Shown piece by piece: positions 297 through 15,945 of a stretch of 64,000 nt of DNA. The stretch lies in contig JAMPUU010000015.1 in NCBI GenBank assembly GCA_030144965.1, positions 1 to 64,000 on the forward strand, given 5' to 3'. The position numbers and the translations under genes were made by a program. Each line of letters begins with the position of its first letter. Within the stretch, counting starts at the first letter, position 1. The DNA comes from Nitrospira sp. BO4. GTDB lineage: Bacteria > Nitrospirota > Nitrospiria > Nitrospirales > Nitrospiraceae. The notes beneath the pieces are model-generated. The model was not told where the DNA came from and did not search any database. It worked only from the letters and a program-made list of their open reading frames with translations.

Positions 297-343
297 ATTG
301 GTGCCCCCGATACGAATTGAACGTACGACCCGCGGTTTAGGAA
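297..343 (-). repeat. Displaced 3' half of tRNA-Arg(CCT): left attachment-site repeat
   Basis: These 47 bases match the 3' half of the intact tRNA-Arg at 5487-5563 exactly, from the base before the CCA end through the anticodon loop, and the match stops at the loop. The 5' half of the tRNA is absent here. This is the pattern left when a tyrosine-integrase element inserts in a tRNA gene and restores one full copy. It marks the probable left edge of the 0.34-5.5 kb island. It is not a functional tRNA. Confidence 0.85.
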
Positions 344-736
344 TCAGTTACAAGGGATTGCTCAAGTAATTGAAGACTTGGGCAATCTCTCCTTCCTTCA
401 AGGGAATACACGGTTTAAGCTATAGTCTGACTTCGTACCCATTCACTTCATTTCAGTCAGTTTTGTCGCTCTCGCTAACACCATAGTAACACCTGCACCC
501 CAAGGCATGGATCGGCGGACCCCCCACCTTGGATTCGCCTTGGTACCATATTGGGTTTGCAACACCAGGGCAAAGGGGAGCGTGGGGAAGTTGCAGCCTA
601 ACCAAAAATTATTAAGTTTCCGTCGGCAAGATACCCGTAGCACACTCCGGCTTGATTTATTTGTACTTATCGACCATCATTTCGCGGATTCAAAAAGAAA
701 TCATTATAAATGATTTGTGCGGATGGGAGGTGACTC
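344..736. other. Intergenic, no gene recognised
   Basis: Between the tRNA fragment and the first island gene I see only short open frames without ribosome sites or recognisable products. The stretch is A+T-richer than the chromosome further right. A ribosome-binding sequence (GGGAGGTGA) at its end belongs to the next frame. Bases 1-296 likewise hold nothing I can name. Confidence 0.4.
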
Positions 737-1035
737 ATGAGGAAGCTATGGCATTTGCTGTTGATCGTAGCGTCTTCAGCAATGCTCCTTCAGTGCAGCC
801 CCATTCTGCAAAACCCACCTAAGGATGCGATGAGTTAAGGGACATTAGCAGAAATAATAGGAAAGCAATTGTGTTCGTCCATGGATTTACTGATACAGGT
901 AAGGAAGCGTGGGACAAGTTTCCAAATCTTCTTTATAAAGATGAAGAATTATCACCCTTGGACGTGTGCATCTGGATCTACCCTTCATACGGTGGGCTTC
1001 ATGATGAAGTACACCTCAACGTCTCTGAGTCACTA
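737..1035 (+). pseudogene. Remnant of an exported alpha/beta-hydrolase (lipase-like) gene
   Basis: An ATG at 737 with a good ribosome site opens 33 codons of a lipoprotein signal peptide (lipobox LLQC) and stops at 836-838. In another frame from about 871 the sequence reads VFVHGFTDTGKEAWDKFP, the oxyanion/strand motif typical of lipase-like hydrolases, for about 55 residues before running into the next protein's signal peptide. The two parts are out of frame and the catalytic Ser/Asp/His region is missing. I read this as a frameshifted, 3'-deleted gene. The family call rests on one motif. Confidence 0.5.
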
Positions 1036-1755
1036 ATGAGATACATCCTTAGCTTTTTCATAGTAGGCGTACTCCTCTGTGCTCAACCAGCTTGGAGTGA
1101 TGTGTCTTATGACACAGCTTCTTCCAGTACAGGGGTTAGTTGTACGTCCCACAGTCATACTTTTGCTTCACATGCTAACCTTGCCATCATTATTGCGAGT
1201 CTTCGTGATGGAGGTGGCCCTCCCTCCTCAGTCTCCAGTATTACCGTAGCAGAAAATAATGCCACGCTTATTGCGGGTTGTGCTGGGTCGTCCGGTAATG
1301 CTCGTATCGAGATGTGGTACCACTTGAAGCACCCTAGGGGTGCCCAAACAGTTGTAGTCACAGTCGGTGGCACTATTGATCAAATGGTGACGGGGGTCAT
1401 TTTCCTGATTGGTGCTGCGACCAGTAGTACATTTGGCACCTGTGTGACTTCCCTTTCCTCAGGAACCAACGTCGATGTGTATAGTATTAGCTCAGCTCTT
1501 GGCGAGCTTGGTGTGATGGGTCTTGCGACTAATGCGGCTCCAACTTGTGCGCCTGATGCAACAGCGGTTGTCAGTGATGAACGATACGATACAGCCAATG
1601 GAGCCAATATAAAGGGTTGTGGATACACCGAACCTGGAGCAGCCGGAACTATCAATATACGAGCTGATCTTGGGGCATCCAATAGTTTTGCCGCCGCAGG
1701 GGTCTCTGTTCGGGCACTCCGCCGAGCTAGCGGTGGAGTCATCCTATTCCAATAA
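1036..1755 (+). CDS. Secreted protein of unknown function
   Basis: The protein has 239 residues. I start it at the internal ATG at 1036 because the next residues form a signal peptide (MRYILSFFIVGVLLCAQPAWS, cut near AWS); the longer frame from 871 adds only hydrolase debris. The mature part is rich in Ser, Thr, Ala and Gly, with scattered Cys that could form disulfides. It looks like a beta-sandwich surface protein, but I recognise no family. Its stop overlaps the next start by one base (TAATG), so the two are probably translated together. It lies in the low-G+C island and is likely acquired. Confidence 0.6.
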   Translation: MRYILSFFIVGVLLCAQPAWSDVSYDTASSSTGVSCTSHSHTFASHANLAIIIASLRDGGGPPSSVSSITVAENNATLIAGCAGSSGNARIEMWYHLKHPRGAQTVVVTVGGTIDQMVTGVIFLIGAATSSTFGTCVTSLSSGTNVDVYSISSALGELGVMGLATNAAPTCAPDATAVVSDERYDTANGANIKGCGYTEPGAAGTINIRADLGASNSFAAAGVSVRALRRASGGVILFQ

Positions 1756-3341
1756 TGATAATCTTTCTATTTTCCCTTACAATTTTATATCCATCTTTAT
1801 GTTCATCATCTGCCTGGGCGACCACTCGTTATGTGGATGGTAGAGCAGGAGCTTGCACTGGGGATTATTCCATAGCTTCTCGTAACTGCACAGGATCAGA
1901 TGGAAACAGTTATGCCACGCTTACAGCAGGCATGGCAGCTACAGCAGCGGCTGGGGACATTCTCTATGTGCGAGCTGGAACCTATACTACTACGCTTCAA
2001 ACTCTCAGTATGCCGGGGGGTGGAGTTAATGGAACATCTTCGAATCGTATCGTAGTTTCTACCTACAACGGAGAGACTGTGACTGTTGCTCCGGGTGGGA
2101 GTGCCCGCTGGGCTGTCTATATTTCGACTAATTACTTTACTCTCAATGGCTTTATTCTTGATTGCACCTCCTCTGCTTTAGGTTCCAATTCAGCGTGCAT
2201 CACTAATGACAATACAGCTAATTCCAATTCTATTATTACTAACAATGTTGTAAAGAATGGCCCAGGAAATGGCATGTTGTATGGGGGAATGAGCCATTTA
2301 TTTGAAGGAAATGAAGTTTTTAATAACGGGTTGGCAAGTGATTACAGTAATTCCATTGGCATGTATCTGATGGCTATTAAGAGTTCCACAGTACGAAGGA
2401 ATACGGTCTATAGTAATGAATGTGTCGGTATTCGTGTTGGCAACTCAGGAACAGTGGGTGGTGGACAAGCCAGTGACAATATTGTGGAACTAAATTATAC
2501 TCATACAAATGGAACGGCAAAAGGTCTCAGTGGAACAGCAAGTTGCAGCAGTTCATCAGCAGGTATTCTGATTGGCGACCAACGAAATGTTGCACGATAT
2601 AATGTTTCCTACAATAATGCTGGGCAAGGGCTCCGCATATTTCCCTTAACAGGAACTACGACGACTGCGAATAATGCTCTTTATAATAATACTTCCTATG
2701 CTAATGTTTCCCATGGTATTCAAATCTTTACCAATGCCCAAAGTAGCATTGTCCGCAACAACCATTCGATAGGAAACGGGGGAAGTCAATATACTGACAG
2801 CGGAACTGGTACTACAGCATCCAACAATCGTACAACTGGTTCTATTACTGACTGTACTGTTTCCACCTCTGTTTTTACCCAGAAAGCTGGTTCTTCTTGT
2901 ATTGACCAGGGGTCTACATTAACGGGATATGCTTATAATGGGAGCGCCCCAGATCAGGGAGCGTTTGAAACTATTGTCTTTTCCACTTGTGAGGTACGTG
3001 CCGCTGCAACTTCCACAGTTCGTGTAACCTTTTCTGTCAATCTTGTTCCCCCGCTTCTTCCTGCGACTGGAGCAACAACTTTCACAGTACGAAAGAACGG
3101 AAGCAGCAATGCCGTCAGAGGTTCTGTTGATCGTGTTGGTGATGGCATCTACGACATTCCTGTGACAAATAGTTATGCAGGTGGGGATACGGTTGATATG
3201 AGTATTTCGACCAACAATATTACCTCGTCAGACTATATCGGAAACACCATGGTACAGCCCTATGTCGGAACACTCAGTAATCAAAGCTGTACCAATAATG
3301 CGGGTGGGGCCCCTGCCCATACCCGTAATCAATCCCGTTAA
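1755..3341 (+). CDS. Secreted right-handed parallel beta-helix protein
   Basis: 528 residues with a signal peptide (about residues 1-22, cut after SAWA). Residues 25-80 have the ATxYVDG...GDILYVRAGTY pattern that opens many pectate-lyase-like beta-helix proteins. Residues 90-400 contain repeated asparagine-rich turns (NxxVxNN, YNNTSY) typical of parallel beta-helix rungs. The C-terminal 120 residues look like a separate beta domain. Such proteins bind or cut polysaccharides at the cell surface; no catalytic set can be named here. It is coupled to the preceding secreted protein (1-base overlap) and shares its lower G+C content, which suggests transfer with the island. Confidence 0.7.
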   Translation: MIIFLFSLTILYPSLCSSSAWATTRYVDGRAGACTGDYSIASRNCTGSDGNSYATLTAGMAATAAAGDILYVRAGTYTTTLQTLSMPGGGVNGTSSNRIVVSTYNGETVTVAPGGSARWAVYISTNYFTLNGFILDCTSSALGSNSACITNDNTANSNSIITNNVVKNGPGNGMLYGGMSHLFEGNEVFNNGLASDYSNSIGMYLMAIKSSTVRRNTVYSNECVGIRVGNSGTVGGGQASDNIVELNYTHTNGTAKGLSGTASCSSSSAGILIGDQRNVARYNVSYNNAGQGLRIFPLTGTTTTANNALYNNTSYANVSHGIQIFTNAQSSIVRNNHSIGNGGSQYTDSGTGTTASNNRTTGSITDCTVSTSVFTQKAGSSCIDQGSTLTGYAYNGSAPDQGAFETIVFSTCEVRAAATSTVRVTFSVNLVPPLLPATGATTFTVRKNGSSNAVRGSVDRVGDGIYDIPVTNSYAGGDTVDMSISTNNITSSDYIGNTMVQPYVGTLSNQSCTNNAGGAPAHTRNQSR

Positions 3342-3938
3342 GGAATTTCATTATGACCGTGGCACTGAGGCTGCCCCCGTCATTCTCCTCACTGGATATG
3401 CATCTACAGGGGCAGCGGAGCACTACAACCGGGCGTTCTGGTGAGTCTCGGTGAGTTCCCGAATGGCCTGCGTATAACACCATCACCGCCTTCCCTCTCC
3501 CATTCATATCATATCCGATACAGTCGGAATCCATTCCGATACGAACGCAAGATGTCTGAACTTCGAATCAGAACTTGAAAGTGACATGTATACGGTACTT
3601 TGTGCGCGTCATTACACGTGGCCTAAGAAATGCTTTAGAACCTCGCATGATCAGAGGTTGAAGAAGCCTCGATGCAAAAGTCAGAAGAAAAGCGAATGGA
3701 TGCGATCATGAGGCTACGCTGGTCCAATGTTCTCGGCTTTGTGATGTTGACTCCCGCCCTCTTTGTAGATAAAGCGGTTCTCCTGTACGTGCGGTACAAC
3801 TCAATAGCGATCGCGATCGCATACGTGGTGGTGGGCCTTTGCCTCTCATCCTGGAGAGGTGCAGTTCGCCAGCACACCTGATCCATCCTTGTCAGCGAAT
3901 GCTGACTCCCGGGCCCTGCTCCGGTAAAATCCTCCCCT
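3342..3938. other. Intergenic with one doubtful small membrane-protein frame
   Basis: The only frame worth noting is 3672-3881 (+, 69 codons). It has two hydrophobic stretches and charged ends, so it could be a small inner-membrane protein, but the ribosome site is weak and I recognise no family. The rest shows no gene, RNA or repeat that I can support. Confidence 0.3.
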
Positions 3939-4826
3939 ATGCCGCTCTCCCCACTCATTCGCTTCGGGACCTCCACCTAGACTTATGAAGGCTGGCAGGG
4001 GCAGGTCTACAAGAAGCAGTACGCCAAGACGATGTTTGCCCGAGAATGTCTGGGTGAGTATTGCCAATACCTCTATAACGGTGAACCCCTTTTCCGGACC
4101 GTCGGAAATGACTCCACCTTCTACCGGCCACCGACTCCCAACCAACTTCGCAAGTACCTGACTCAGATCCCCGAAGATTTCGAGATGTGTTTCAAAGTCT
4201 GGGAGGAGATCACCGTTCCAACCTATGCGAATCACCCGCGCTATGGAGCGAAAGCTGGGCAACCGAATCCCAATTTTCTGAATCCCGAGCTATTCAATGA
4301 CCTTGTGCTGACGCCCTTTCGCGATGCGAAGTTTGAACCGCACATGGGTCCCTTCCTGTTTGAGTTTCAACGACATGGGATGCCCATTCATGAGTTTCTT
4401 TTACGACTCAGTGTGTTTTTCCTGAGACTGCCTAGGGATTTCAAATATGCAGTCGAGATTCGGAACGCGGGATTCCTCGGCCCGCTCTATCGCTCGTCTT
4501 TGGAAAACTGGGGTGTCGCGCACGTCTATAATCACTGGTCTTACATGCCTTCCTTGGCGGAGCAGCATAAACGCATGGAGGAAAGCTTTACAGCACCCTT
4601 CACGGTTCTGCGTCTCCTCACACCCTTGCAGATGTCCTATGAAGCAGCAAAGAAACGAGCTGGGCCGTATAACAAGATCGTCGGTGAGTTACCGGAGATG
4701 CGGAAAGATACGATCGCTCTCATTCTGCAATCGATCAAGCAAGCAAAAGCGGCCTATGTGATCGTGAACAATCGAGCTGAGGGGAGTGCGCCGTTGACGA
4801 TTCAGGCGCTCAGCCAAATGCTGTGA
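3939..4826 (+). pseudogene. DUF72 (YecE-like) gene interrupted by an amber codon
   Basis: From the ATG at 3939 the frame reads the usual DUF72 start, with FGTST then a stop, then TYEGWQGQVY. The stop (TAG, 3978-3980) replaces the conserved tryptophan of the family motif GTSxWxYxGW, a single-base TGG to TAG change. After the stop the frame stays open for 282 codons with conserved DUF72 segments (FYRPPTPNQL, FEFQRHG, YAVEIRN) to a normal end. Restart at ATG 4032 would lose the first strand of the barrel. Function of the family is unknown (a TIM-barrel fold). I call it a pseudogene by one nonsense mutation. Confidence 0.75.
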
Positions 4827-4997
4827 GGGTTTCTTAGCCGTACAGCACGTTGCATATTAGCAACCCCGGCCTATCTAGAAACGACCCCTGCGTGGCCTTC
4901 CAAAGCGAAATATCCGCCAATAGGGAACCCGTCGAAAAGGCAATTTAGGGACTCATCCCACGATCCATTTGGCGGTGGATCTGAATCAAACACGCGC
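4827..4997. other. Degraded upstream part of integrase gene
   Basis: About 4945-4997 in one frame reads THPTIHLAVDLNQTRA, resembling the beta-sheet region just before the catalytic domain of phage integrases. The frame then breaks and the catalytic part continues in another frame. The rest shows nothing. Confidence 0.35.
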
Positions 4998-5528
4998 TTG
5001 ACTATGAGTCCTCATAAGATCTTTCGAAGCCTCAATTCCTGGCATCAGTCGAAGTGGGTGTTTCCTTCGGAGAATCCTGCCAGCCCTTTGGATGCCCGGA
5101 ATTTCTATCACCGGGTGTGGATGCCTGCGATTACCAAAGCCGGAAATGAATGGGCCACCTGGCACGATCTCAGACATACCTTTGCCAGTCGATTGGCGAT
5201 GTCTGGTCACAATGAGGGCACCATTGCAGCTCTATTGCGGCATTCCACCACGGTTTTGGTCAAACGCTATGCGCACCTGAGTCCGTCGCATTTGAAGGCT
5301 GCCGTGGAAGGGGTTGCAGGGTTTGAGAAGGCTTCCGGAGAGAAGCCAGCCCACCTGATCCAGGACGAAAAACCAGCGCCCATTTCCAATGGAACCGTGA
5401 CCGGAACCGTGATAGTGGGTCTTGGGGGAGTCAAGGACGGGAAGCCTGAAGCGGCTGAAGTCGGCGTCAGCGAAGGAGAAAAAGATTGGTGCCCCCGATA
5501 CGAATTGAACGTACGACCCGCGGTTTAG
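4998..5528 (+). pseudogene. Tyrosine integrase, C-terminal fragment
   Basis: 176 codons with the second half of a tyrosine recombinase catalytic domain: box II HDLRHTFASRL, then LLRHS and the nucleophile region KRYAHLS. The N-terminal arm-binding and core domains and the first catalytic Arg are absent, and the frame seems shifted at about 4996. The protein would be inactive. The end runs antisense into the tRNA-Arg gene, giving the tail CPRYELNVRPAV, and the stop lies in the anticodon loop. An integrase abutting its target tRNA is the usual arrangement for tRNA-directed islands. Confidence 0.8.
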
Positions 5529-5563
5529 GAAACCGCTGCTCTATCCAACTGAGCTACGGGGGC
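5487..5563 (-). tRNA. tRNA-Arg (anticodon CCT)
   Basis: The reverse strand folds as a full cloverleaf. The acceptor arm is GCCCCCG/CGGGGGC with encoded CCA (the template TGGT at 5487-5490). The D arm is GCTC...GAGC, and the anticodon stem is GCGGT/ACCGC around the loop TTCCTAA, giving anticodon CCT. The T loop is TTCAATT. It is the restored copy at an integration site: the 3' half is repeated at 297-343 and the 5' half at 6641-6680. Confidence 0.95.
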
Positions 5564-5726
5564 GTGACTGTAGTTTCAATGGTTTGCGACTCCCTGTCAA
5601 CCCCGATCGTACCCTCCATTCCGGTTCCGCCTCCTGCTACCATAAAATATAGCCTTCTATTTGTATTGCAGGCCTGCCGAGATGCATGCCGCCATTCGCC
5701 GTGATTGACTTGGCCCTCATGACCAT

Positions 5727-5820
5727 GGTTTCGTACCGCCGCTGATCAGCGGATCAGCAACGCCAAAGAAACCGGGTGAATGCCGGTCAGGGCGCAGGTT
5801 CCCAACCGTGAGGGATGAGG
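5727..5820 (+). promoter_or_regulatory. Possible cobalamin-type riboswitch leader
   Basis: GGTTTC (5727-5732) can pair with GAAACC (5768-5773). Between them is a perfect hairpin CCGCTGATCAGCGG. After them follows GGGTGAATGCCGG and then CCCAACCGTGAGG. This order resembles the core of cobalamin riboswitches (paired GGGAA-type strand, GGTGxAAxxCCGG, then a CCGCxACxGTgA-like box), but several conserved bases differ. The last segment includes the carbonic anhydrase ribosome site, so translational control is possible. The match is by eye and partial. Confidence 0.3.
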
Positions 5821-5832
5821 AGGGCATGGCAC

Positions 5833-6537
5833 ATGGAAGATCGTACGTCGAGTGACTCGGTGGTCAGCAGGAGGCAGGTTCTGCAAACGATCGTGTCAGG
5901 CGTGGTGGTAGGCATTGCCACTCAGGCGGGAAGCGAGCTGGTTTTTCCTCGAAGAAGCTATGCCCAAAGCAGTTTGAGTCCGGACGAAGCTCTGGAGAAA
6001 TTGCTTGTAGGGAATCAGCGCACAGTCGCGAATCAACTGACCTCGCTCGAACACGACCTCGCCATTCTGAGAGAGCATACGGTCGACAAACAAGAGCCAT
6101 TCGCCGGGATCCTTGCCTGCGCCGATTCTCGTGTGCCTGTGGAACTCGTGTTCGATCAAACGATCGGCCGACTATTTGTCACTCGAGTGGCTGGAAATAT
6201 GGTCACGCCAGAGGTGATTGCCGGACTCGAATATGGAGTTGCCGTCCTTGGGATCAAAGTGCTGCTGGTCCTCGGTCATAGTGGATGCGGAGCGGTCAAG
6301 GCGGCGATGAAAACTACAGCGGTACCCGGGCAAATCAGCGCTCTGTATCAACACCTTCAGCCGGGAGTGGCACGGTCCGGCGGCAACATCGATGCGGCAA
6401 TTGAAGCCAATGCGCGGATTCAGGCAGAGTTGCTGCGCATGTCTTCTCCTGTGATCCGGGATGCGATCAAAGCCGGAAACCTCAGAGTAGAAGCTGCGGT
6501 GTACGATCTTGCCACCGGCAAAGTTTCGATGAGGTGA
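5833..6537 (+). CDS. Beta-class carbonic anhydrase, Tat-exported
   Basis: The enzyme interconverts CO2 and bicarbonate. Zinc ligands are present in the beta-class pattern: Cys96 and Asp98 in CADSR, then His149 and Cys152 in HSGCG. The N-terminus has a twin-arginine signal (SRRQVLQTIVSG) with cleavage near SYAQS, so it should act folded in the periplasm. I start at ATG 5833, spaced 10 bases from GAGGAGG; an in-frame ATG at 5815 lies upstream of that site. It stands alone between two tRNA-Arg sequences, and the 1.1-kb segment may have been duplicated or inserted there. Periplasmic CO2/bicarbonate conversion would fit an autotroph. Confidence 0.9.
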   Translation: MEDRTSSDSVVSRRQVLQTIVSGVVVGIATQAGSELVFPRRSYAQSSLSPDEALEKLLVGNQRTVANQLTSLEHDLAILREHTVDKQEPFAGILACADSRVPVELVFDQTIGRLFVTRVAGNMVTPEVIAGLEYGVAVLGIKVLLVLGHSGCGAVKAAMKTTAVPGQISALYQHLQPGVARSGGNIDAAIEANARIQAELLRMSSPVIRDAIKAGNLRVEAAVYDLATGKVSMR

Positions 6538-6640
6538 CTGCCCGGCGCACAAAGTGACTGACGCGACTTGGCCATATCCCGAACGGGATGGAACGCTCCC
6601 ATGTTCGACATCGTGTGCCGCTGGAGAAGCCCTCGTCTTG

Positions 6641-6680
6641 TTTAGGAAACCGCTGCTCCATCCAACTGAGCTATGGGGGC
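6641..6680 (-). repeat. Displaced 5' half of tRNA-Arg(CCT)
   Basis: Forty bases match the anticodon-loop-to-5'-end part of the tRNA at 5524-5563 with two mismatches. The match begins at the same TTTAGGAA loop sequence where the 297-343 fragment ends. The 3' half is missing. It also forms the last 13 codons of the gene at 6642-7460. Confidence 0.85.
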
Positions 6681-7460
6681 ATGGCCGAACGGTAGGGCAC
6701 TGGCAGTCGGATTGGAAGGGGAGAGGTGGTCTGCGCCGAGGCCCTCAAAATGCTCTGCATAAGCGGGCATGGGGTCAAACGAGAGTTCTTCCGTTATGAT
6801 TTTCCCCTGCGCTTCATGTACACGGATGCAACGGTGGCTCATCACACGCAATGCGGTAAACAGCCGATGAGCCGGAGTCATCGGCCTTGGAATGGAAGGG
6901 CAGGGGCAGAGCAGTGAAACTCCCTGCCGCGTCAAGTGGCGCACCGATTCGATCATCCGGTCCGCCAGCCGGTCGGCCTCGTTGTCCGTCAAGCCGTTTA
7001 CAGACAGAGTTTCAAGCAGGCCGGAGATCACCGCCGTGTTGGTTTGATAGCGCTCTAAGGCGCCGGCCAAACACTGGGACATCAGGCGTTCCAATTGCCG
7101 CGCGCTGAAGGCACGCGCCACATGGATCATCGCAAGGGCTTTCCGAGTCTGCTGCCGTCGGCCGCGAGCCAATTTCCCGATAAGCAGCGCATCGAATGTG
7201 TGGACTCCATCCAGGTACACGATTGGACGCCCGGATAGGGCATGATCGACGAGAACCTGTAAGGCGATTCTTGAGGCGACCGGATGACCATATAACACCG
7301 TTAGTCGATCGGATGGATTCAGTACAATCGCATGGCTGCCCTGATCTCTCGCTGCTTCTCTCACAGATTTTGGCCGTGAAGCGCGCCTGTCACGGAGATG
7401 CCCCACGCCAGTAGCCGGCAACCGTATCGCGCTATTTTTTGTTGCTTCTGCGCCGCTCAT
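6642..7460 (-). CDS. RecA/ImuA-like protein of a LexA-linked cassette, C-terminus replaced
   Basis: 272 residues from the ATG at 7460, which has AGGAG upstream. The first 26 codons of the longer frame lack a ribosome site. The middle part (SRIALQVLVDHALSGRPIVY, then LDGVHTFDAL) looks like the core of RecA-superfamily proteins such as ImuA, but no clear Walker A motif is visible, so nucleotide binding is doubtful. It is the last of four leftward genes headed by a LexA-like repressor, an arrangement like SOS mutagenesis cassettes (lexA-imuA-imuB-dnaE2); imuB and dnaE2 are absent. The tail APIAQLDGAAVS is encoded by the tRNA-Arg fragment, so the original end was lost. Confidence 0.5.
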   Translation of the reverse strand: MSGAEATKNSAIRLPATGVGHLRDRRASRPKSVREAARDQGSHAIVLNPSDRLTVLYGHPVASRIALQVLVDHALSGRPIVYLDGVHTFDALLIGKLARGRRQQTRKALAMIHVARAFSARQLERLMSQCLAGALERYQTNTAVISGLLETLSVNGLTDNEADRLADRMIESVRHLTRQGVSLLCPCPSIPRPMTPAHRLFTALRVMSHRCIRVHEAQGKIITEELSFDPMPAYAEHFEGLGADHLSPSNPTASALPFGHAPIAQLDGAAVS

Positions 7461-7474
7461 ACCGAGGTGTTCTC

Positions 7475-7657
7475 CTATCCGCAGCACCCACCGGAAAAGA
7501 CTTGTCGCTGCCGGTACGCATTCCAGCAGGAGGCGCACAGCTGAACCGTGGAGTGGGTCAGACTATCAATTGATTCCACCCGCTGCTCGACGACCAGGCC
7601 ACAATCAGAACAGGGGCCTGTCGTCACCGATGATGATCTATGCTCTTGGACTATCAT
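7475..7657 (-). CDS. Small zinc-ribbon-like protein
   Basis: About 60 residues with two cysteine pairs (CSDC and CASC, about 28 residues apart) and a C-terminal GGCCG. The spacing suits a zinc ribbon. I start at ATG 7657 rather than 7687 because GGTGG lies before it. It overlaps the end of the upstream small gene by 20 bases and is followed 14 bases later by the RecA-like gene, so it is probably co-transcribed in the LexA cassette. Function unknown. Confidence 0.55.
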   Translation of the reverse strand: MIVQEHRSSSVTTGPCSDCGLVVEQRVESIDSLTHSTVQLCASCWNAYRQRQVFSGGCCG

Positions 7658-7886
7658 GAGGCACCACCTTCGTATTCGAACGCACACGTTGATTGCAGAC
7701 TGCCGACATAAACTCGTTTCCCTGTCTGGATCTCATCATGCTCCGAAAACGCCCAATCAGTGAGCCGGTATGAGGTGGCTGCAGTCCCCACTGAATCGTT
7801 CGCAGTCGGGTATCCAACGCGGCCACAGTCCTCTCCAAATTCATCAACCGGTCTTTCGTGATGACTGTTTGTTCGATCATGTCCAT
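7638..7886 (-). CDS. Small protein in LexA cassette, unknown
   Basis: 82 residues from the ATG at 7886, preceded by an excellent ribosome site (AAAGGAGG). Residues 10-40 could form a short amphipathic helix or coiled coil (DRLMNLERTVAALDTRLRTI). The C-terminus is basic. I recognise no family. It begins 20 bases after the LexA-like gene stops, which supports one operon under that repressor. Confidence 0.5.
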   Translation of the reverse strand: MDMIEQTVITKDRLMNLERTVAALDTRLRTIQWGLQPPHTGSLIGRFRSMMRSRQGNEFMSAVCNQRVRSNTKVVPHDSPRA

Positions 7887-7906
7887 CGCTCCCTCCTTTG
7901 AGTTGT

Positions 7907-8452
7907 CTAGACGGTACAATGGCGAATGACGCCGATGACAATCCCTTCGATGTGAAACTCATCCGATGGCCGGACGATGATCGGCTGCATTGTTTCATTG
8001 GCCGGGTGAAGTTCAATACGCGAGTCCTTCTTAAAATACGTCTTGATCGTGGCCTCGCGATTCACCAAGGCGACGACGGTTTGCCCGTTTTTAGCCGTGC
8101 TCTGTTTGCGCACGACCACCAGATCGCCGGGTAAAATCCCGTCATCTTTCATGGACTCGCCTTTCACCTTTAACGCGAAGGTCTCACCGCCTCGCAACAT
8201 ACTGGGCGGCACGTCCACGAGTTCCGATTGCGGCACCGGGTCGATGGGGAAACCGGCTGCAACTAGACCAGCCATCGGAATCGCCGTCTTCTGTCGTAAT
8301 TGATCCAGCACAACTGACACGACACCGGGAATCTTCCGCATCCCGGCTTCATACCGCGCGACGGATACCCGTGTGGTGTGCAATGCATCAGCAAGTTGCT
8401 GCTGCGTGAGGCCTAGTTCTTCTCGAAGGCGTTTGAGGTCTTGTGCTCTCAT
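7907..8452 (-). CDS. LexA-like self-cleaving repressor (XRE helix-turn-helix plus S24 peptidase)
   Basis: 181 residues. Residues 7-40 form an XRE helix-turn-helix (LGLTQQQLADALHTTRVSVA) instead of the winged helix of classical LexA. Residues 60-180 are a peptidase S24 domain with cleavage site Ala66-Gly67 (LVAAGFPI), nucleophile Ser100 (GESMKDDG) and general base Lys137 (REATIKTY). All catalytic parts are present, so RecA-stimulated self-cleavage after DNA damage is expected. A palindrome touching its start codon suggests autoregulation. It heads the cassette that includes the RecA-like gene. Confidence 0.85.
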   Translation of the reverse strand: MRAQDLKRLREELGLTQQQLADALHTTRVSVARYEAGMRKIPGVVSVVLDQLRQKTAIPMAGLVAAGFPIDPVPQSELVDVPPSMLRGGETFALKVKGESMKDDGILPGDLVVVRKQSTAKNGQTVVALVNREATIKTYFKKDSRIELHPANETMQPIIVRPSDEFHIEGIVIGVIRHCTV

Positions 8453-8453
8453 G

Positions 8454-8490
8454 TGTAACCATTGGTAACATGCCTATTCCCCCCTGTCAA
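8454..8490 (-). promoter_or_regulatory. Promoter and operator of the LexA-like gene
   Basis: On the minus strand TTGACA (8485-8490), 17 bases, then TACCAA (8462-8467) make a plausible sigma-70 promoter. The -10 element lies inside the palindrome TGTAACCATTGGTAACA (8454-8470; arms match at 7 of 8 positions about a central base). The start codon is at 8450-8452 with no ribosome site before it, so the transcript is probably leaderless. A repressor on the palindrome would block the -10 region. Confidence 0.6.
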
Positions 8491-8979
8491 GGGAGGATAT
8501 TTCGGGATATTCACGAGGGCTGCTGTGTATAACTTCTGGACTTGGGGAAAATTTCAACGTTACGAACTCTCTAACAATTTCGAAACATAGAATTAACCGA
8601 CTTTTAGAGCTTTTTCTTTCCGCGTCCGCCGAAGACCACTAGATGTAGTGGCCCATTTCCATTTTCAATCAATGATTAAAAAATAGGCAAAAGGGTCTCT
8701 CCCCACGCATTCGGCTGATTCAGGCATCGCGAAGGCACTTGTTCACAGACTTATCCACAGAAATTGGGGAGAGTGGAATCCCTCGAGAAAGTGAAAAGGA
8801 ATAAGTGTGCGAGCTAAATGTGGTGACCGTCAGTTGAATCAAGGAAGATTGCGTGATGAGAAGCTGAAGAAGAAATCGGCAGCGATGGCAACACACACAA
8901 ACGCCGCTTACCCGCCTCAACGAGCGGGTAAGCTGAGCGTTATCCTGATCTCTATCGCGACGCGATAAGTAACGAGCCG
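8491..8979. other. A+T-rich intergenic region with DnaA-box-like sites
   Basis: No gene is visible. There are two perfect 9-mers of the DnaA-box consensus: TTATACACA on the minus strand (8524-8532) and TTATCCACA on the plus strand (8751-8759). A one-mismatch copy, TTGTTCACA, is at 8739-8747. The stretch between (about 8560-8690) is A+T-rich. This could be an origin-like region or a DnaA-regulated promoter. No dnaA, dnaN or partition gene is nearby, so origin function is only a possibility. Confidence 0.3.
8906..8933. terminator. Perfect 10-bp hairpin, possible terminator
   Basis: GCTTACCCGC and GCGGGTAAGC pair perfectly around an 8-base loop. It lies 46 bases beyond the stop of the molbindin gene (leftward). 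No run of T follows in that direction, so it is at best a weak or factor-assisted terminator. A second small palindrome, TATCGCG-A-CGCGATA, is at 8953-8967, nearer the stop. Confidence 0.4.
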
Positions 8980-9183
8980 TTACTTTCCGATCATCACTTC
9001 TGTGGCTTTGATGGCGACCAACACTGAGTCATTCACCTTCAACCCCATATTCTTGACGGAGCCTTCCGTGATGGCCGCAACAAACTCGAGTGTGCCGACC
9101 TTAACCGTTACTTCGGCCATTGCTTGTCCTTCTGTGATGCGACTGACGGTGCCTTGGAACTGATTGCGCGCGCTAAGTTTCAT
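8980..9183 (-). CDS. Molbindin (single TOBE/Mop domain)
   Basis: 67 residues, one Mop/TOBE domain: ARNQFQGTVSRITEG at the start, then KVNDSVLVAIKATEVMI. Molbindins assemble into oligomers that bind molybdate or tungstate in the cytoplasm, acting as a store or buffer. The family length is about 68, so this is complete. A ribosome site (AAAGGAGG) precedes the ATG. It is the last gene of the leftward molybdate locus, and its final motif KATEVMI is nearly repeated in the next gene. Confidence 0.9.
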   Translation of the reverse strand: MKLSARNQFQGTVSRITEGQAMAEVTVKVGTLEFVAAITEGSVKNMGLKVNDSVLVAIKATEVMIGK

Positions 9184-9354
9184 GATCTGTCCTCCTTTGA
9201 TAAGTAAAGAATCGTCGTAGCTCCTCCTCGTACCGTATCAGCTGCTCATGAGAAAAGGATGTACGTTCGGTAAGAATATTTCGCTAGTTTGTGCGGGATC
9301 GATTGGTTTTTGTAAGTCAAGACAGTCTGGACGAGGTGGTTCGAATTGATCGGT

Positions 9355-9747
9355 TTAGTTTTTCACGATCATGACCTCGGTCGCTTTGACCAAAGCAATG
9401 GCGGTGTCTCCGATGCGAAGCCCGAGTTCGTCCAGCGCATCACGAGTGATCACGGCGGTGATCTTGTGGGAACCAATGTCGACGTCGATCTGTGCCATAA
9501 TCGCGTCCCGCTTGATTCCAGTCACCCTGCCGACGAGCTTATTTCGTCCACTGACATCATCAGCGCCGGATGGCTTTTTGCCAAGCCACCGGTCCAGCAA
9601 CGATTTTGTAAACCGATAGCGTCCCCCAATCTTCGGGGCCTCAATTTTGCCCTCCCAGATATATCGATAGAATGTCGGCAATGTCAGCCGAACATATCGT
9701 GCCGCTTCCTTGGCGGTTAGCACGTCACCCATCATTCTTTTCGCCAT
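9355..9747 (-). CDS. Excisionase-type helix-turn-helix protein fused to a TOBE domain, probable molybdate regulator
   Basis: 130 residues in two parts. Residues 8-55 are a HTH_17 (MerR/excisionase-like) DNA-binding domain (LTAKEAARYVRLTLPTFYRY). Residues 65-130 are a TOBE/Mop domain ending in KATEVMI. This combination plays the role of ModE, which has a different winged helix-turn-helix: molybdate binding in TOBE would alter DNA binding. It sits in the modABC locus between two other TOBE-related genes, and a 17-bp interrupted palindrome lies just upstream. Confidence 0.8.
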   Translation of the reverse strand: MAKRMMGDVLTAKEAARYVRLTLPTFYRYIWEGKIEAPKIGGRYRFTKSLLDRWLGKKPSGADDVSGRNKLVGRVTGIKRDAIMAQIDVDIGSHKITAVITRDALDELGLRIGDTAIALVKATEVMIVKN

Positions 9748-9783
9748 CGATGGTTCCTATCATTGAATCGACTACCCTGGAGT

Positions 9784-9800
9784 CTGTTTAGCCTAGACAG
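9784..9800. promoter_or_regulatory. Interrupted palindrome, possible operator
   Basis: CTGTTTAGCCTAGACAG reads as CTGT-n-TAG-n-CTA-n-ACAG, symmetric at 14 of 17 positions. It lies between the stop of the upstream gene (9810) and the start of the helix-turn-helix/TOBE gene (9747), 37-53 bases before that start. This is where an autoregulatory site would be expected. It does not resemble the E. coli ModE site. Confidence 0.35.
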
Positions 9801-9809
9801 GGTCTTCCA

Positions 9810-10379
9810 CTAAAGTGGCATCGACGTATCTTTGGCACTGCAGTCCTGCATCCACATTCGTCCGTATACCAACGCCTCGGGCTCCAGAGCAGCCACTCGC
9901 TGACTGGGAAATAGCTGGATTCTGCGGGGATCGACGATGATACTGACTGGATCCCATGTTCGAGCTGAACTCGTGGATCCCAAGACCGGGATCGTGCTGG
10001 CCAGAGCCCAGCTTTCGCCATGAATTTTTGCTGTGACGGTTTGCCCTTCCTTGAGCGGCTTTATCAGCACAATGCGACCGTACCAGCGGTTCAGTCGCTG
10101 TCTACTCCGACGAAATAAACCCGCCTCAAGCCGAACGGCCTCAGCCGGAATCTTGGCGATGACGGGCTGTCCGGGGAAAAAGCAATGGTCATCGCCGAGT
10201 GCCAGCCTGATGCGCATGTCGACTCGGCGTCCCGCACGGATGCGTACTGTGGGGTGAAGAAGACCCACGTACTGGGAATGAACGATTCCTTTCACAAGGG
10301 TGACCATGGAATCGGCGAGGAGCATGTTGCCCTCTGGATGATCAGGAACCCTCCCGCCAGAGATGGTGTCATGATTCAT
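9810..10379 (-). CDS. Protein with divergent TOBE-like region, molybdate locus
   Basis: 189 residues from the ATG at 10379, placed because CGGAGG precedes it; an ATG 30 bases further upstream has none. Residues 80-160 (EGQTVTAKIHGESWALASTI, then DPVSIIVDPRRIQLFP) resemble the oligobinding/TOBE-type beta-barrels found at the end of ABC-transporter ATPases. I cannot assign a defined family. It starts 33 bases after modC stops, so it is probably in the modABC transcript and may bind oxyanions or regulate the transporter. Confidence 0.45.
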   Translation of the reverse strand: MNHDTISGGRVPDHPEGNMLLADSMVTLVKGIVHSQYVGLLHPTVRIRAGRRVDMRIRLALGDDHCFFPGQPVIAKIPAEAVRLEAGLFRRSRQRLNRWYGRIVLIKPLKEGQTVTAKIHGESWALASTIPVLGSTSSARTWDPVSIIVDPRRIQLFPSQRVAALEPEALVYGRMWMQDCSAKDTSMPL

Positions 10380-10412
10380 GACCGGACCTCCGATCGTAAA
10401 TGATGCCATGCA

Positions 10413-11504
10413 CTAGGCCATCAACTCTTCATTCAACGCCACGGTCTTGATGTGGGCGAATACCCGTTGTCTAGGTTTCAATCCCAGCGTGACGAGCGAT
10501 TTTCGAGTGATGCTGGCTACGAGTGGAACTCCGATGTCCAACAGCACGTCGACCGAGGCCTGGTCCATCTCCCGGATCTCGACAATCGTGGCCTCCAGAA
10601 TATTCAACACACTGGTCGGCGCGATGGTCTTCTCCAAGACGAGGCTGACATCGCTGGAAAGGATGTGGACGCGCACGACCTGTCCAACGGTGACCGACTG
10701 AAGCGGCACAAAGAGGCGCTGGCCGTTGAATTCCAGTTGAGTGAGGCCGTACTGCGCTTCATGAACAGCGACACGAGCCTCCAAGATGGCGCCGATTCGA
10801 TGCGCTCCGAAATGTCCCCGGAATTGCAAAGAAGTGAACACCTCATTAAGCGCGCCGGACGCGATGACCTTCCCCTCTTTCAAAAGAACGACACGGTCTG
10901 CCAGTTGAAGGATTTCAGCGATCGCATGGCTGACGTACATCACCGGGATACGGAGTTCCTCATGCAGACGACGGATGAAGGGAAGGAGCTCTTGCTTGCG
11001 TTGAATATCCAGCGAGGCAAGTGGCTCATCCAGAAGGAGCAGTTTGGGACTTGTCAGCAGCGCACGGCCGATCGCCACTCGCTGTTGCTCCCCGCCGGAT
11101 AGTTTGTGAATGCGGCGTTCAAGAAGATGGCCGATTCCCAGAATGTCGACGACTTGCTCGATCGTAATGCGGCGTTCTTCTGAAGAGATACGCTTGTACC
11201 CGTACAGCAGATTCGCGCGTACGTTGTAATGGGGGAACAAGCGGGGTTCTTGGAAGACATACCCGACCGGTCGTTTATGGAGCGGTAGGCACAGATCTTT
11301 TGTTTCATCCTGCCAGACATCGTCGCCGAACCGCATGACGCCGTTCGGAGCCCGTTCGAGCCCGGCCAGACACCTCAAGAGAGTGGTCTTTCCTGATCCG
11401 GACGGTCCGAAGATGGCAGTAATGCCCGACATTGGGACATCCACATCAACGTCCAAATGAAAGGCCGGAAATCGTACATCAAAGCGTGCCAGCAGACGGC
11501 TCAT
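10413..11504 (-). CDS. modC: Molybdate ABC transporter ATPase ModC
   Basis: 363 residues. Residues 1-235 are the ABC ATPase: Walker A GPSGSGKTT (about 33-41), Q-loop FQEPRLFPHYNV, signature LSGGEQQRVAIGRAL, Walker B LLLLDEPLASLD, switch His in YVSHAIAEI. The C-terminal 120 residues hold a Mop/TOBE regulatory domain typical of ModC. The start at 11504 overlaps the modB stop by 4 bases (ATGA), so a much longer open frame upstream is ignored. It energises molybdate import with ModB and ModA. Confidence 0.93.
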   Translation of the reverse strand: MSRLLARFDVRFPAFHLDVDVDVPMSGITAIFGPSGSGKTTLLRCLAGLERAPNGVMRFGDDVWQDETKDLCLPLHKRPVGYVFQEPRLFPHYNVRANLLYGYKRISSEERRITIEQVVDILGIGHLLERRIHKLSGGEQQRVAIGRALLTSPKLLLLDEPLASLDIQRKQELLPFIRRLHEELRIPVMYVSHAIAEILQLADRVVLLKEGKVIASGALNEVFTSLQFRGHFGAHRIGAILEARVAVHEAQYGLTQLEFNGQRLFVPLQSVTVGQVVRVHILSSDVSLVLEKTIAPTSVLNILEATIVEIREMDQASVDVLLDIGVPLVASITRKSLVTLGLKPRQRVFAHIKTVALNEELMA

Positions 11505-12181
11505 GACACATGGATGGGAAATCGTCGGTTTGTGATATAGACCGCCAACAGCACCAGAAACGAAAAGATCAGCATGAAGGCTGAGACGGCGTGCGCCTGA
11601 GCGTATTCCCCGACTTCGACATGCTCGAAGATGGTTGTGGAGAGGACACGTGTTTGCCCCGGAATGGATCCACCGACCATAAGCACCACTCCAAATTCTC
11701 CCATCGTATGTGCAAACCCCAGCACAATTGCACTGATATAGCCTCGCAGTGCGATCGGGGAGATAACCGTTAGAAACGCATCCCACTTTGAAGCACGGAG
11801 TGACCAGGCCGCTTCCATGGGTGCCTTGCCGACCGCTTCAAATGCGCTTTGCAACGGCTGAATGACGAATGGCATTGAATAAAACACTGAGGCGATCACC
11901 AGACCGATGAAGGTGAAGGCGAGGGAGAGATCTGCAAACCGGCCGAGCGGCCCGTAAGGACCCAGTGCGACGAGAATGTAGAATCCCAGGACGGTGGGCG
12001 GAAGCACGATCGGGAGCGCGACCACAGCTTCTATGATAGGTCTCAACCGGGATCGTGTATGTGCCAGCCACCAAGCGAGGGGCGTGCCTACGATCAGCAG
12101 AACGATCACTGTCATCGTGGCCAGTCGGACGCTGACCCACAGCGCGCTCAGATCCAGATCTGTCAAAGCTCCCATATGCAC
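11501..12181 (-). CDS. modB: Molybdate ABC transporter permease ModB
   Basis: 226 residues with five to six membrane segments. The ATPase-contact (EAA) loop is present as EAAWSLRASKWDAFLTVISP, and HTMGEFGVVLMVGG is the ModB/CysT permease signature. The first codon shown is GTG; an ATG two codons later (12175) is equally possible. It lies 3 bases after modA and overlaps modC by 4, a tight modABC operon. Confidence 0.93.
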   Translation of the reverse strand: MHMGALTDLDLSALWVSVRLATMTVIVLLIVGTPLAWWLAHTRSRLRPIIEAVVALPIVLPPTVLGFYILVALGPYGPLGRFADLSLAFTFIGLVIASVFYSMPFVIQPLQSAFEAVGKAPMEAAWSLRASKWDAFLTVISPIALRGYISAIVLGFAHTMGEFGVVLMVGGSIPGQTRVLSTTIFEHVEVGEYAQAHAVSAFMLIFSFLVLLAVYITNRRFPIHVS

Positions 12182-12184
12182 GTT

Positions 12185-12946
12185 CTACTTCAACTCATAA
12201 CCATAGTGTTCGATGATCGCCTTTGCCTGCGGGCCACCCATGAACTCCATGAGCGCTTTGGCCGCCGGGTTGTCTTTTCCCTTCGTCAGCAAGATCACGT
12301 CTTGTTTGATCGGTTCATGCAGATTGGTAGGGACGTCCCATCGACTACCTTGACCCTTGATTTTCGGATCGAGGACCTGTGATAACGCCACAAAACCCAA
12401 TTGAACATTGCCCGACTCGATGAATCCCATGGTCTGGCCGATATTTTCTCCCATGACAATTTGGGGTTGTAGACCCTCCCAGAGATCCAACTTTTGCATG
12501 GTCTGCATCGCCGCCAGGCCGTAAGGCGCGGTCTTGGGATTCGCGATGGCGAGGCGCTTGAAATTTTTTGAGCGTAACGTTTCCTCTCCTTTCACCAGGT
12601 CGGCATTCGGACTCCACAGCACGAGGCGGCCTATGGCATACGTCAAACGGGAACCCTTGACCCCCAACCCCTCGTCTTCCAACAGCTTTGGACGTTCCAT
12701 ATCGGCAGAGAAGAACACATCGAACGGCGCCCCGTTCTTGATTTGCGAATAGAAGTTTCCGGAGGAACCGGCGGCCACCCGGAGGTTGTGACCGGTTGCG
12801 GTTTCGAATTCAATCGCTATTTCACGAAATGGCGGAACAAAATTGGCGGCGACGGCCACCAAGACCTGCTCGGCGAAAGCCGGTGTCACCGCCGCACTCG
12901 CGATGACACACACATACCATGCTAGAAACCTCTGTTTCATGGTCAA
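12185..12946 (-). CDS. modA: Molybdate-binding periplasmic protein ModA
   Basis: 253 residues, signal peptide cut near AFAEQ. The mature protein has the ModA pattern: VAVAANFVPPFREIA at the start, AAGSSGNFYSQIKNGAPFDV (oxyanion-binding Ser/Gly loop), NPKTAPYGLAA, and a GNVQLGFVALSQV segment near the end. It captures molybdate (or tungstate) in the periplasm for ModBC. It lies 6 bases after the porin gene, so an outer-membrane channel and the inner-membrane importer are transcribed together. Confidence 0.92.
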   Translation of the reverse strand: MTMKQRFLAWYVCVIASAAVTPAFAEQVLVAVAANFVPPFREIAIEFETATGHNLRVAAGSSGNFYSQIKNGAPFDVFFSADMERPKLLEDEGLGVKGSRLTYAIGRLVLWSPNADLVKGEETLRSKNFKRLAIANPKTAPYGLAAMQTMQKLDLWEGLQPQIVMGENIGQTMGFIESGNVQLGFVALSQVLDPKIKGQGSRWDVPTNLHEPIKQDVILLTKGKDNPAAKALMEFMGGPQAKAIIEHYGYELK

Positions 12947-12952
12947 TCCTTT

Positions 12953-14497
12953 CTAGATCCTGACTCGCATCTGCGCGTAAAAGTAATCACTATCCTTGTT
13001 CCCGCCGGTCGGCATTTGAGCCAGGATGGCGGGGCTGTCGAAATAGGAGCCCTTGAACCAATGGATATAGCCGACATCAAAGTCCAGGTTCTTATTGACC
13101 GCCCACCGTGCGCGTAGTTGCATGTCATGTCCGAGCGAACCACCGGAGTTGCCGGTGGGGTCCCGCAACCCAGAACTCCCGAAGACATCCTTGTTCTGGG
13201 CGAGATACCAGACGCGATGTTTGACTTCCAGAATCCAGCTGGGGGAGGGGGCGAGGATCAGCCGCCACCCCGGCGTAATGAGGTTAGTTCGGTAAAATGG
13301 CCCCCACATACTGGTGATCATGTATTCAAAGTTACGCGCGCCAAATAACGTATCGAACCCTTCGTCTTGACTATCGCCCGGCTTGTGATCGCCGCTGACG
13401 TAGTCGAAGTGAAAGAGCAGCCGGGGTGTCCAAGGCAGATTGAACATATAGCCGATATCTAAGTGCTGAAAATGGGCGAAGTGTTTGGTCACGCCCCGGT
13501 GGCCGATCTGCCAGGCGGTCTCGATTTCATAATCCACTTCTCCCGGTTTAGCCTCTTTAAAGAGGCGACCGCCAAACGTGTTATAGGTGCGATGGCTAGT
13601 CACCGTCGCGACCCGCCGATCATTCAGGCCCAGGTAATAGGCGTCCAGGTTAAACCAGCGGAACTGCTGGCTCTCAAAATATGCCCCCCAAAAGAGCGAC
13701 TTATTGTTCTCGGTATCGAGGCTCACATCGTCTCGCTGGACCGTCTCTGTGACGAAGGCCTTGAGCCGCCAGGCATTGGGCTGACTAAGTTGCCAAAGAA
13801 ACCCATCGAAGGCATTGGTGGTATTGCGGAAGTCGTTGCGCGCGACCAGGCGCCGGTTGCCCAGGTCCAGGGTAAAGCGTCCAAAGAGAAGATCGGTCCG
13901 CAACCCGGTGCTCAGGACATTGTCCAATTTCACGGCTCCAAAGAGCTGAAGCACATCGAATTCATTGATCATCGTGAGGTCTCGGAAATCGCCGGGCTTT
14001 CCATTATCAAACGACCGCGAGTCCTGTCCCTCGAAGAGAAATCGCAGCGGCCCATTGCCGCCCAAGCCCACACGAAGCCGCGACCGCATGGGAATTTGGA
14101 AGTCTGTCGCTCCGTTTCCAATTTTTTGGGCAGCCCTCCATGGGTGGTCATACGACTCAAATCTGGTCCGGTTTTCGAGCCCCAGATCGATCCAGTCGGG
14201 CAGGTGCAGCGCGGTTTTCAGGTAGCGGTTCCATTCGATATCCCTCCGGCGATTGAGGATTGCATCGGCCGGCTCAATCCAGTTTTTGCCGGTCTGTTCC
14301 GAAATTTGAAAATATCGCTCATTCGAGATCCGGCCTGTGTCACGCATGTACTTAAAGACCGGATCTTCGGTATTCTTAAATACCCATTGCCCATCTTTCT
14401 GGACCAATTCTCCATACTCGACGGCGTTCGTTGTGCTTGCTCCCACAAGCAGGAGCGACACACTGAGCAAGGCCCACCACAACGATTTCTTCGACAT
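12953..14497 (-). CDS. Outer-membrane beta-barrel (alginate-export-type porin)
   Basis: 514 residues with a signal peptide (cut near TNAVE). Residues 25-70 carry the module ELVQKDGQWVFK, DPVFKY, GRISNERYF, which also opens the unrelated porin at 16390. From about residue 95 the sequence is an alginate_exp-type barrel (DWIDLGLENRTRFESYD, repeated aromatic beta-strands, last strand ending in YAQMRVRI). Directly followed by modA, it is probably the outer-membrane route for molybdate or a similar anion; the substrate is inferred from position. Confidence 0.8.
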   Translation of the reverse strand: MSKKSLWWALLSVSLLLVGASTTNAVEYGELVQKDGQWVFKNTEDPVFKYMRDTGRISNERYFQISEQTGKNWIEPADAILNRRRDIEWNRYLKTALHLPDWIDLGLENRTRFESYDHPWRAAQKIGNGATDFQIPMRSRLRVGLGGNGPLRFLFEGQDSRSFDNGKPGDFRDLTMINEFDVLQLFGAVKLDNVLSTGLRTDLLFGRFTLDLGNRRLVARNDFRNTTNAFDGFLWQLSQPNAWRLKAFVTETVQRDDVSLDTENNKSLFWGAYFESQQFRWFNLDAYYLGLNDRRVATVTSHRTYNTFGGRLFKEAKPGEVDYEIETAWQIGHRGVTKHFAHFQHLDIGYMFNLPWTPRLLFHFDYVSGDHKPGDSQDEGFDTLFGARNFEYMITSMWGPFYRTNLITPGWRLILAPSPSWILEVKHRVWYLAQNKDVFGSSGLRDPTGNSGGSLGHDMQLRARWAVNKNLDFDVGYIHWFKGSYFDSPAILAQMPTGGNKDSDYFYAQMRVRI

Positions 14498-14561
14498 TGA
14501 TTCTCCTCTTTGTTCCGGCGGTTGATGTGAATGTGTGTCGTAACCCTTGGCGAGAAAGTAC

Positions 14562-15743
14562 TTAAACGGCCCTCAGGACATGGACTTTCCCCGTGTCGCT
14601 CGTGTCGTATCCTCCCAAGGCTTCGACCTCATTTCGAAAAGCTTTGCTCACGATGGTTTCAAACAAGTGGGCTAGGGTCGGATGAGATTTTAAGTAGAGC
14701 TTGGGTACGACCAGATCGTAGCGCGCGGCTTGGAGTGGAACGAAGTCGAGTTCAAAAAGTTGTGCCGCCGAGCGAATGCCAAGCCCAACGTCGGCCTGGC
14801 GCCCATTGATGGCTCGAGCTACTTCAAAATGAGAGGATACGACTCGGTCGTATCCTTGAACGTGTGTCGGCTCTACTCCGGAAGCCCGCAATCGTTGATC
14901 AAGCAACAGCCTCGCCCCGGAGCCTTCTTCCCGATTGATCAAGGTGACCGTCGGTTGGCCAAGATCAGCAGCAGTCCGGATGGACAATGGATTCCCTTTT
15001 CGAACTAAGAAGCCCTCTTCCCACGTCGCAAAAGTGACGACCTCATAGGCCGATCCTTTGAGGTGTCGCCGAAGGAACGGCATATTCGATTCGCCGGTGG
15101 CTGGATCAAATAAGTGCAATCCGGCAACATGGACCTCGCCACGCTGCAATGCCCGCAGTGCCGCCATACTGCCCATCGGCCAACCGACGACCGTCGTCTG
15201 ATCCTTGTGTCGCCGCAAATATTCGCCGGCCAGAAAAATTGCCGGGTCGCATCCGGCTACGGAGATTTCCTGTTGGATCGCTTCCCGGTCGCGTGAGAGT
15301 TTTACTCGAACGGTTGAGCCGGAGGGCTTGAGATGTGTGTGGGTGATATATCCATCGGCAGGAATTGCAAAGGAAAGTTGCCCGCCCAAGTCGGCGACAG
15401 GACGCACGATCATCCGTCTTCCTATAGTGGAAACCTTGACCCGAATGGGCGAGATAGTCGGCTCTTTTTCTACGCGCTGACCGATCAACTCACCTTCGAT
15501 TATGTCTTCAGCTGGGATAAGAGCGAATAGATCCTCTACGCGGCATGTCAAAACAGAGGCCAACCGGAGCGCAACGGCCGTGGTCGGCAAATACAGATTT
15601 GATTCAATCGAAGAGACAGCCTGCCGCGTCATGCCTGCTCGCCTGGCGAGTTCACCTTGGGAGAACCCGTTCTTCGTTCGGACAGATTTGAGGTGATTGG
15701 AAAACTGAACGGCGTTTTCCTGTTGTTTGGTCTGAATTTTCAT
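14562..15743 (-). CDS. XRE-type regulator with periplasmic-binding-protein-like sensor domain
   Basis: 393 residues. Residues 15-75 form an XRE helix-turn-helix (GFSQGELARRAGMTRQAVSS). Residues 90-390 resemble type-2 binding proteins of the ModA kind (VAGCDPAIFLAGEYL, VHVAGLHLFDPATGE, NREEGSGARLLLDQRL, ADVGLGIRSAAQLF). Proteins of this architecture are thought to sense molybdate or a related ligand and control transport genes. I start at ATG 15743: the ATG at 15779 lies inside a palindrome and ahead of the -10 element. It is the gene between the molybdate and sulfur loci, so it may control one or both. Confidence 0.8.
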   Translation of the reverse strand: MKIQTKQQENAVQFSNHLKSVRTKNGFSQGELARRAGMTRQAVSSIESNLYLPTTAVALRLASVLTCRVEDLFALIPAEDIIEGELIGQRVEKEPTISPIRVKVSTIGRRMIVRPVADLGGQLSFAIPADGYITHTHLKPSGSTVRVKLSRDREAIQQEISVAGCDPAIFLAGEYLRRHKDQTTVVGWPMGSMAALRALQRGEVHVAGLHLFDPATGESNMPFLRRHLKGSAYEVVTFATWEEGFLVRKGNPLSIRTAADLGQPTVTLINREEGSGARLLLDQRLRASGVEPTHVQGYDRVVSSHFEVARAINGRQADVGLGIRSAAQLFELDFVPLQAARYDLVVPKLYLKSHPTLAHLFETIVSKAFRNEVEALGGYDTSDTGKVHVLRAV

Positions 15744-15749
15744 GGCGGC

Positions 15750-15783: not shown

Positions 15784-15945
15784 AATTTACTCAATCTTTT
15801 TGTATAGCTAAAAAATGAGTAAATCGCCTGGCAGGGAATATTGGTAATCGAGAGCATGTGAAACAATCATTTAAGAATATAAATATCTCCTAACAAGTTG
15901 ATTGTATTACAAGGATTAGAAATTTTCACTTTATTATTTATTATG

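Follow-up and report, generated by a model that had tools for sequence, protein, structure and literature searches.

A Nitrospira tRNA-Arg(CCT) gene probably colonised from both ends by integrative elements

Three tRNA-Arg(CCT) pieces and the segments they delimit

The window, by which we mean the whole 64,000-nucleotide stretch analysed here, comprises bases 1-64000 of contig C15 from a genome of 4.7 Mb, and as it begins with the first base of that contig its left flank is cut at the window edge. ARAGORN and Rfam both detected a single tRNA in the region, tRNA-Arg(CCT), and a repeat search paired it with two partial copies (Table 1). One pair, 293-343 and 5481-5531, is identical at 50/51 positions and the other, 5523-5566 and 6640-6683, at 41/44, both well apart from the remaining repeats there; when only positions inside the tRNA are counted, the 3' half matches perfectly and the 5' half differs at 2 of 39. 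Both halves and the complete tRNA lie in one orientation. An initial annotation had placed the 3' half to the left, the 5' half to the right and the complete tRNA between them, and its coordinates and assignment of the halves are right, as is its location of an island and of a carbonic anhydrase segment. It had also recognised that the two fragments overlap in the loop, although the shared sequence it gave, TTTAGGAA, has one extra base at its left end. Only TTAGGAA is common to both fragments, which is the 7-nt anticodon loop in the plus orientation and reads TTCCTAA in the tRNA sense, between the stem arms GCGGT and ACCGC. Divergence of the orphan 3' half from the complete tRNA starts right after this loop.

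Table 1 Features at the tRNA-Arg(CCT) locus (positions in the window)
Feature	Position	Strand	Evidence or remark
Decayed 3' end of older 3'-side integrase gene	201-296	plus	81% DNA identity over 96 nt to L253
Orphan 3' half of tRNA-Arg(CCT)	293-343	minus	Loop TTAGGAA at 337-343, its end
3'-side integrated segment (island)	344-5486 (to 5530 including tRNA 3' half)		Pfam, composition
Beta-helix protein	1755-3341		In 3'-side island
DUF72 protein	4032-4826		In 3'-side island
Tyrosine integrase, C-terminal fragment	4998-5528	plus	PF00589, E=6.6e-12; reads into tRNA 3' end
Complete tRNA-Arg(CCT)	5487-5563	minus	ARAGORN, Rfam; loop/crossover site 5525-5531
Putatively imported tRNA promoter region ('class B' flank)	5564-5604	minus	TTGACA-17-GAAACT, 8 nt before tRNA
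5'-side integrated segment, remnant without integrase	5564-6639		1.1 kb, one gene
Carbonic anhydrase (PF00484), cargo of 5'-side segment	5815-6537	plus	Pfam, E=8.7e-34
Orphan 5' half of tRNA-Arg(CCT)	6640-6683	minus	Loop at 6642-6648; substitutions reflect decay
Displaced native tRNA promoter flank	6684-6725	minus	90% over 40 nt to G007

The left segment has a GC content of 0.488 compared with 0.553 for the window. Its cognate 3' fragment shares the orientation of the complete tRNA and lies downstream of it in the tRNA sense, with the crossover in the anticodon loop and identity stopping at those 7 nt. The integrase fragment is 176 aa long with the N-terminal part missing, and the closest relative found for it is a 421-aa integrase in G030 (75% identical) that overlaps the 3' end of tRNA-Arg(CCT) by 21 nt; a search for the same integrase family at this target had been proposed in the initial annotation. 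We did not find an intact tyrosine integrase in 344-5530, only this C-terminal fragment, so the segment is best regarded as a remnant and not as an active island. The other genome of the window's species, G065, is nearly complete and is without most of the island (about 574-5480), only ~230 bp of the distal end being common to both.

Further to the left the sequence matches the terminal part of an integrase gene that lies on the 3' side in L253 (JAGXAR010000071), and the frame within it reads AASKLNTYLQTNAV. This identity indicates that an older 3'-side element, which had abutted the tRNA 3' end, once lay to the left and, with the left flank being the decayed end of its integrase, that the stack is deeper than two elements. 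G065 has further 3' halves at 3765343-3765387 (87%, more decayed) and 3785043-3785093 (91%), with the native left-hand gene at 3757188. Orphan decay grows with distance from the tRNA, which is what would be expected if every new element inserts beside it. Contig C14 of the window's own genome carries C15 on to the left, the two meeting at one G065 position. Positions 1-54 of the window and of C14 (L226) are similar contig starts (TGTCCGT..AAA.GGGG.AGAACCC) that adjoin G065 3784805/3784807, and these similar ends probably represent an insertion sequence at which the assembly was interrupted. Elsewhere in the same genome, on contig C7 (L117, 6916-6961), there is another partial tRNA-Arg(CCT)-like 3' half (85%).

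The right segment has a 5' fragment upstream of the tRNA with its boundary at the loop. In many relatives the 5' side of the tRNA is a conserved flank ending GATTGGAAGGGGAG, followed by S24/lexA-like and molybdate-transport genes. Within the window this native flank adjoins the orphan 5' half at 6684 and not the complete tRNA, from which it follows that the fragment at 6640 is the original 5' half of the host and that 5564-6639, with the carbonic anhydrase gene, is an insertion. The empty site whose existence in relatives the initial annotation had proposed to check was found for this segment in G075, G005, G030 and G001, in each of which the native flank adjoins the complete tRNA with nothing in between. 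The segment is common to the window and G065 (98.7%) and is therefore older than the split of both strains. Relatives of the carbonic anhydrase with 65-69% identity occur in 8 Nitrospira species, with no tRNA near them within the flanks examined. Of the two filters used by Islander, an integrase gene and a length of at least 2 kb, the segment passes neither; Pfam identified no integrase in it, no intact recombinase could be tied to it, and its right end does not resemble the termini of the 'class A' elements described below. We have filed it as a scar that works like a tRNA-targeted anticodon island, not as a full member of that group. The leader of the carbonic anhydrase gene looks riboswitch-like; it has no Rfam match at the gathering threshold and this candidate was rejected.

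Loop boundaries and integrases across Nitrospira

The window and G065 are 99.6% identical from the loop rightwards (5522-17962 and 3903563-3915999, respectively) and differ to the left of it. The complete tRNA of G065, at 3786672-3786750, lies ~117 kb away from the orphan 5' half beside the carbonic anhydrase gene, and what separates the tRNA from this old 5' half is an ICE-like element of ~117 kb (L098-L104, 3786751-3903562). Its integrase (369 aa, PF00589) ends 27 nt from the 5' end of the tRNA, the conjugation genes sampled encode VirB4-, VirD4- and VirB11-type proteins, and metal-resistance and other cargo includes RND pumps, a multicopper oxidase, a P-type ATPase and a flavin reductase. 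An 87-kb relative of this element occupies the same place in G032 with the same integrase, and in both genomes the integrase sits beside the restored 5' end of the tRNA, while the orphan 5' half marks the opposite end of the element. With respect to the right end of the G065 element the window represents the unoccupied state, and G065 directly illustrates how an orphan 5' half arises.

Our survey of the genus covered 79 Nitrospira genomes, most of the relatives being fragmented metagenome assemblies. Among the orphans, 14/20 of the 3' halves and 14/17 of the 5' halves end precisely at the loop. The others nearly all run 1-3 bases past it, an overrun attributable to the matches of this length that chance allows, and one is truncated where its contig ends. 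Two integrations with crossover in the anticodon loop, as the initial annotation had it, are supported by these exact boundaries in many genomes, by the empty sites of the carbonic anhydrase segment and by the further G065 element at the loop. For tRNA-Thr(TGT) too, 5' halves end and 3' halves begin at its loop, and both kinds of halves occur at tRNA-Arg(TCT), with less sharp loop ends.

Integrases at tRNA ends were gathered from all loci retrieved, and the relatives reached through the integrase search were nearly all Nitrospira. The 24 Nitrospira relatives of the class A integrase (the 369-aa protein of G065) all lie on the 5' side of the tRNA, at near-fixed distances from tRNA-Arg(CCT), tRNA-Arg(TCT) or tRNA-Thr(TGT), and form one clade on a maximum-likelihood tree (support 100/99). 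Both of the nearest relatives of this clade are 3'-side integrases: L253, at Arg-CCT with a broken integrase gene, and L003 (G000:C12:206224), a class A-like integrase of 408 aa (59%) that lies at the 3' end of tRNA-Thr(CGT) in the genome from which the window comes. Across the integrase tree 5 side changes were observed compared with 22 in shuffles. In six loci there are integrase genes on both sides of one tRNA (L228, L249 and L250 at Arg-CCT, L234 and L251 at Thr-TGT and L239 at Arg-TCT).

The flanks immediately upstream of the tRNA differ between genomes. Most relatives have the native TTCCAA-17-TACAGT, 8-9 nt before the tRNA, and in the displaced copy in the window the -10 has decayed to TACCGT from TACAGT. 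Sorting the distinct 5' flanks by simple patterns gave 21 native flanks, 10 of class A, 7 of class B and 10 others. The class B flank TTGACA-17-GAAACT is also found in G034, G077, G056, G021, G031 and G055, and in the window we infer that this imported promoter drives the tRNA. These six other genomes have no orphan 5' half and a rearranged neighbourhood, so that class B could alternatively be a lineage-specific native promoter that arrived by homologous recombination. The possibility that the class B flank is a mobile repeat was discarded, as the genus search found it only beside tRNA-Arg(CCT). A search inside the class A elements for a sigma-70 promoter for the tRNA found none. Between L181 in G034 (6786-10045) and L178 in G077 (4919-9867) the tRNA and its class B promoter have together switched orientation with respect to the neighbouring genes, which are a DUF326-like gene, a 167-aa gene and an S24 gene.

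A proposed two-sided stack and its alternatives

With a view to explaining the three pieces together we propose that integrative elements of both polarities have stacked on the two sides of tRNA-Arg(CCT), importing tRNA halves and a promoter, a reading to which we give a probability of about 85%. Its basis was seen directly and consists of the loop boundaries, the empty sites, the placement of integrases in relatives and the difference in promoters. Tyrosine integrases would cut and rejoin within the 7-bp anticodon loop TTAGGAA, which is flanked by the anticodon-stem palindrome GCGGT/ACCGC. An element on the 3' side would bring its own version of the 3' half, leaving the earlier one stranded, and an element on the 5' side would bring a 5' half with its promoter, leaving the earlier 5' half stranded. 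Within the window, an element of the 3'-side type (now 344-5530, with a truncated integrase) has probably restored the 3' half of the tRNA, and a 5'-side element (now 5564-6639, its integrase lost) has probably given a new 5' half and promoter, displacing those of the host. Because each element would have rebuilt the tRNA, the functional gene would be a chimera of two imported halves and an imported promoter. The initial annotation had suggested two nested or successive integrations; two integrations with crossover in the loop stand, but they are of opposite polarity, one having carried a 3' half and the other a 5' half with promoter, and the stack goes deeper.

A plain tandem duplication of the tRNA, with the copies later broken by deletions and the halves left by chance, would account for the shared orientation of the halves and the complete tRNA, as in a tandem array. 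It is however hard to reconcile with breaks at one 7-nt loop in more than 25 orphans from many species, each half lying on the side that integration predicts, with integrases abutting tRNA ends and with the existence of empty sites. Relatives having all three pieces yet no island, which would favour duplication, were not seen, and we consider duplication extremely improbable and rejected it on the loop-exact orphan ends.

The origin of the right-hand segment leaves more room for debate. If only the left island were made by an integrase, the carbonic anhydrase segment, the class B promoter and the new 5' half could have come together by homologous recombination from a class B Nitrospira lineage. 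The segment is without an integrase, and the class B flank adjoins a complete tRNA with no orphan 5' half in the six genomes named above, both of which fit such a transfer. Nevertheless, on its right side the segment is joined at the anticodon loop, as are the elements whose junctions were made by integrases in G065, G032, G037, G007, G009 and G059, and the carbonic anhydrase gene is beside the tRNA in 0 of the class B genomes. We regard homologous recombination as unlikely here, and integrase recombination as what presumably placed the segment.

Going beyond this locus, we lean slightly towards the view that a 3'-side ancestor gave rise to the 5'-side integrase clade when its attachment polarity flipped once. 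The members of this clade would systematically take over the 5' half and promoter of host tRNAs (Arg-CCT, Arg-TCT and Thr-TGT), making tRNA supply depend on element DNA, and together with 3'-side elements whole tRNA genes would be replaced piecewise.

Relation to known elements

In Islander, islands with a 3' fragment number 3,760 and those with a 5' fragment 159 (3,919 in total), and 2,083 islands are at the anticodon (PMC4383910). The Nitrospira locus resembles islands at the anticodon-loop subsite, the 'A' sites of Islander (Williams 2002, by way of PMC4383910 and PMC8371274), in that a tRNA and a displaced fragment form the ends of the island, the 7-bp overlap is the anticodon loop and the integrase adjoins the restored tRNA; it differs in that both polarities are stacked on one tRNA, whereas most islands there have a 3' fragment. 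A bacterial tRNA keeps its original promoter with very few exceptions according to one review, which describes archaeal pTN3-like integrases for which a tRNA 5' half serves as attB and the integrase promoter expresses the tRNA, and states that this situation is seldom met in bacteria (PMC8371274). As in pTN3, the 5'-side Nitrospira elements bring the 5' half so that upstream control of the tRNA becomes element DNA (PMC8371274); unlike pTN3 they are bacterial and their clade lies beside 3'-side integrases, and we claim no homology to the pTN3 integrases. ICEs of the ICEKp1/ICEclc type likewise sit at a tRNA gene with the integrase gene adjoining, but there the host tRNA promoter drives int (PMC13023037), whereas in the 5'-side clade int is directed towards the tRNA, whose native promoter has been displaced. 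By its title, as cited in PMC11476347, a study of Acidithiobacillus ICEs (Castillo et al. 2018) reports that anticodon stem/loop DNA directs ICE recombination, and the likeness we draw is to that title. Anticodon-loop islands are already known, with 5'-side ones rare; we have not found two-sided stacking, promoter replacement or the 5'-side Nitrospira clade described, and in a partial coverage of the literature no papers on elements of both polarities at one tRNA were found.

Most tRNA-borne islands spare the promoter and 5' half of the host and many Nitrospira elements do the reverse, with one tRNA colonised from both ends in an environmentally important genus. With the Nitrospira loci as a natural series one can map the crossover to the anticodon loop and ask how integrase polarity flips and what it costs the host when a tRNA promoter turns into the property of an element. 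Island finders that demand an integrase or at least 2 kb miss scars such as the carbonic anhydrase segment.

Two further observations concern other insertions. Segments of 2.2-2.7 kb on the 5' side in G013 (L184, 4352-6651), G016 (L185) and G018 (L186) adjoin a restored tRNA with a native-type 5' flank, as if an element had taken up the tRNA promoter of a close relative. At many loci a TTGAAA motif, possibly an integrase arm site, lies on the element side 7-10 nt outside the acceptor-stem GCCCCCG, in 5'-side and 3'-side insertions.
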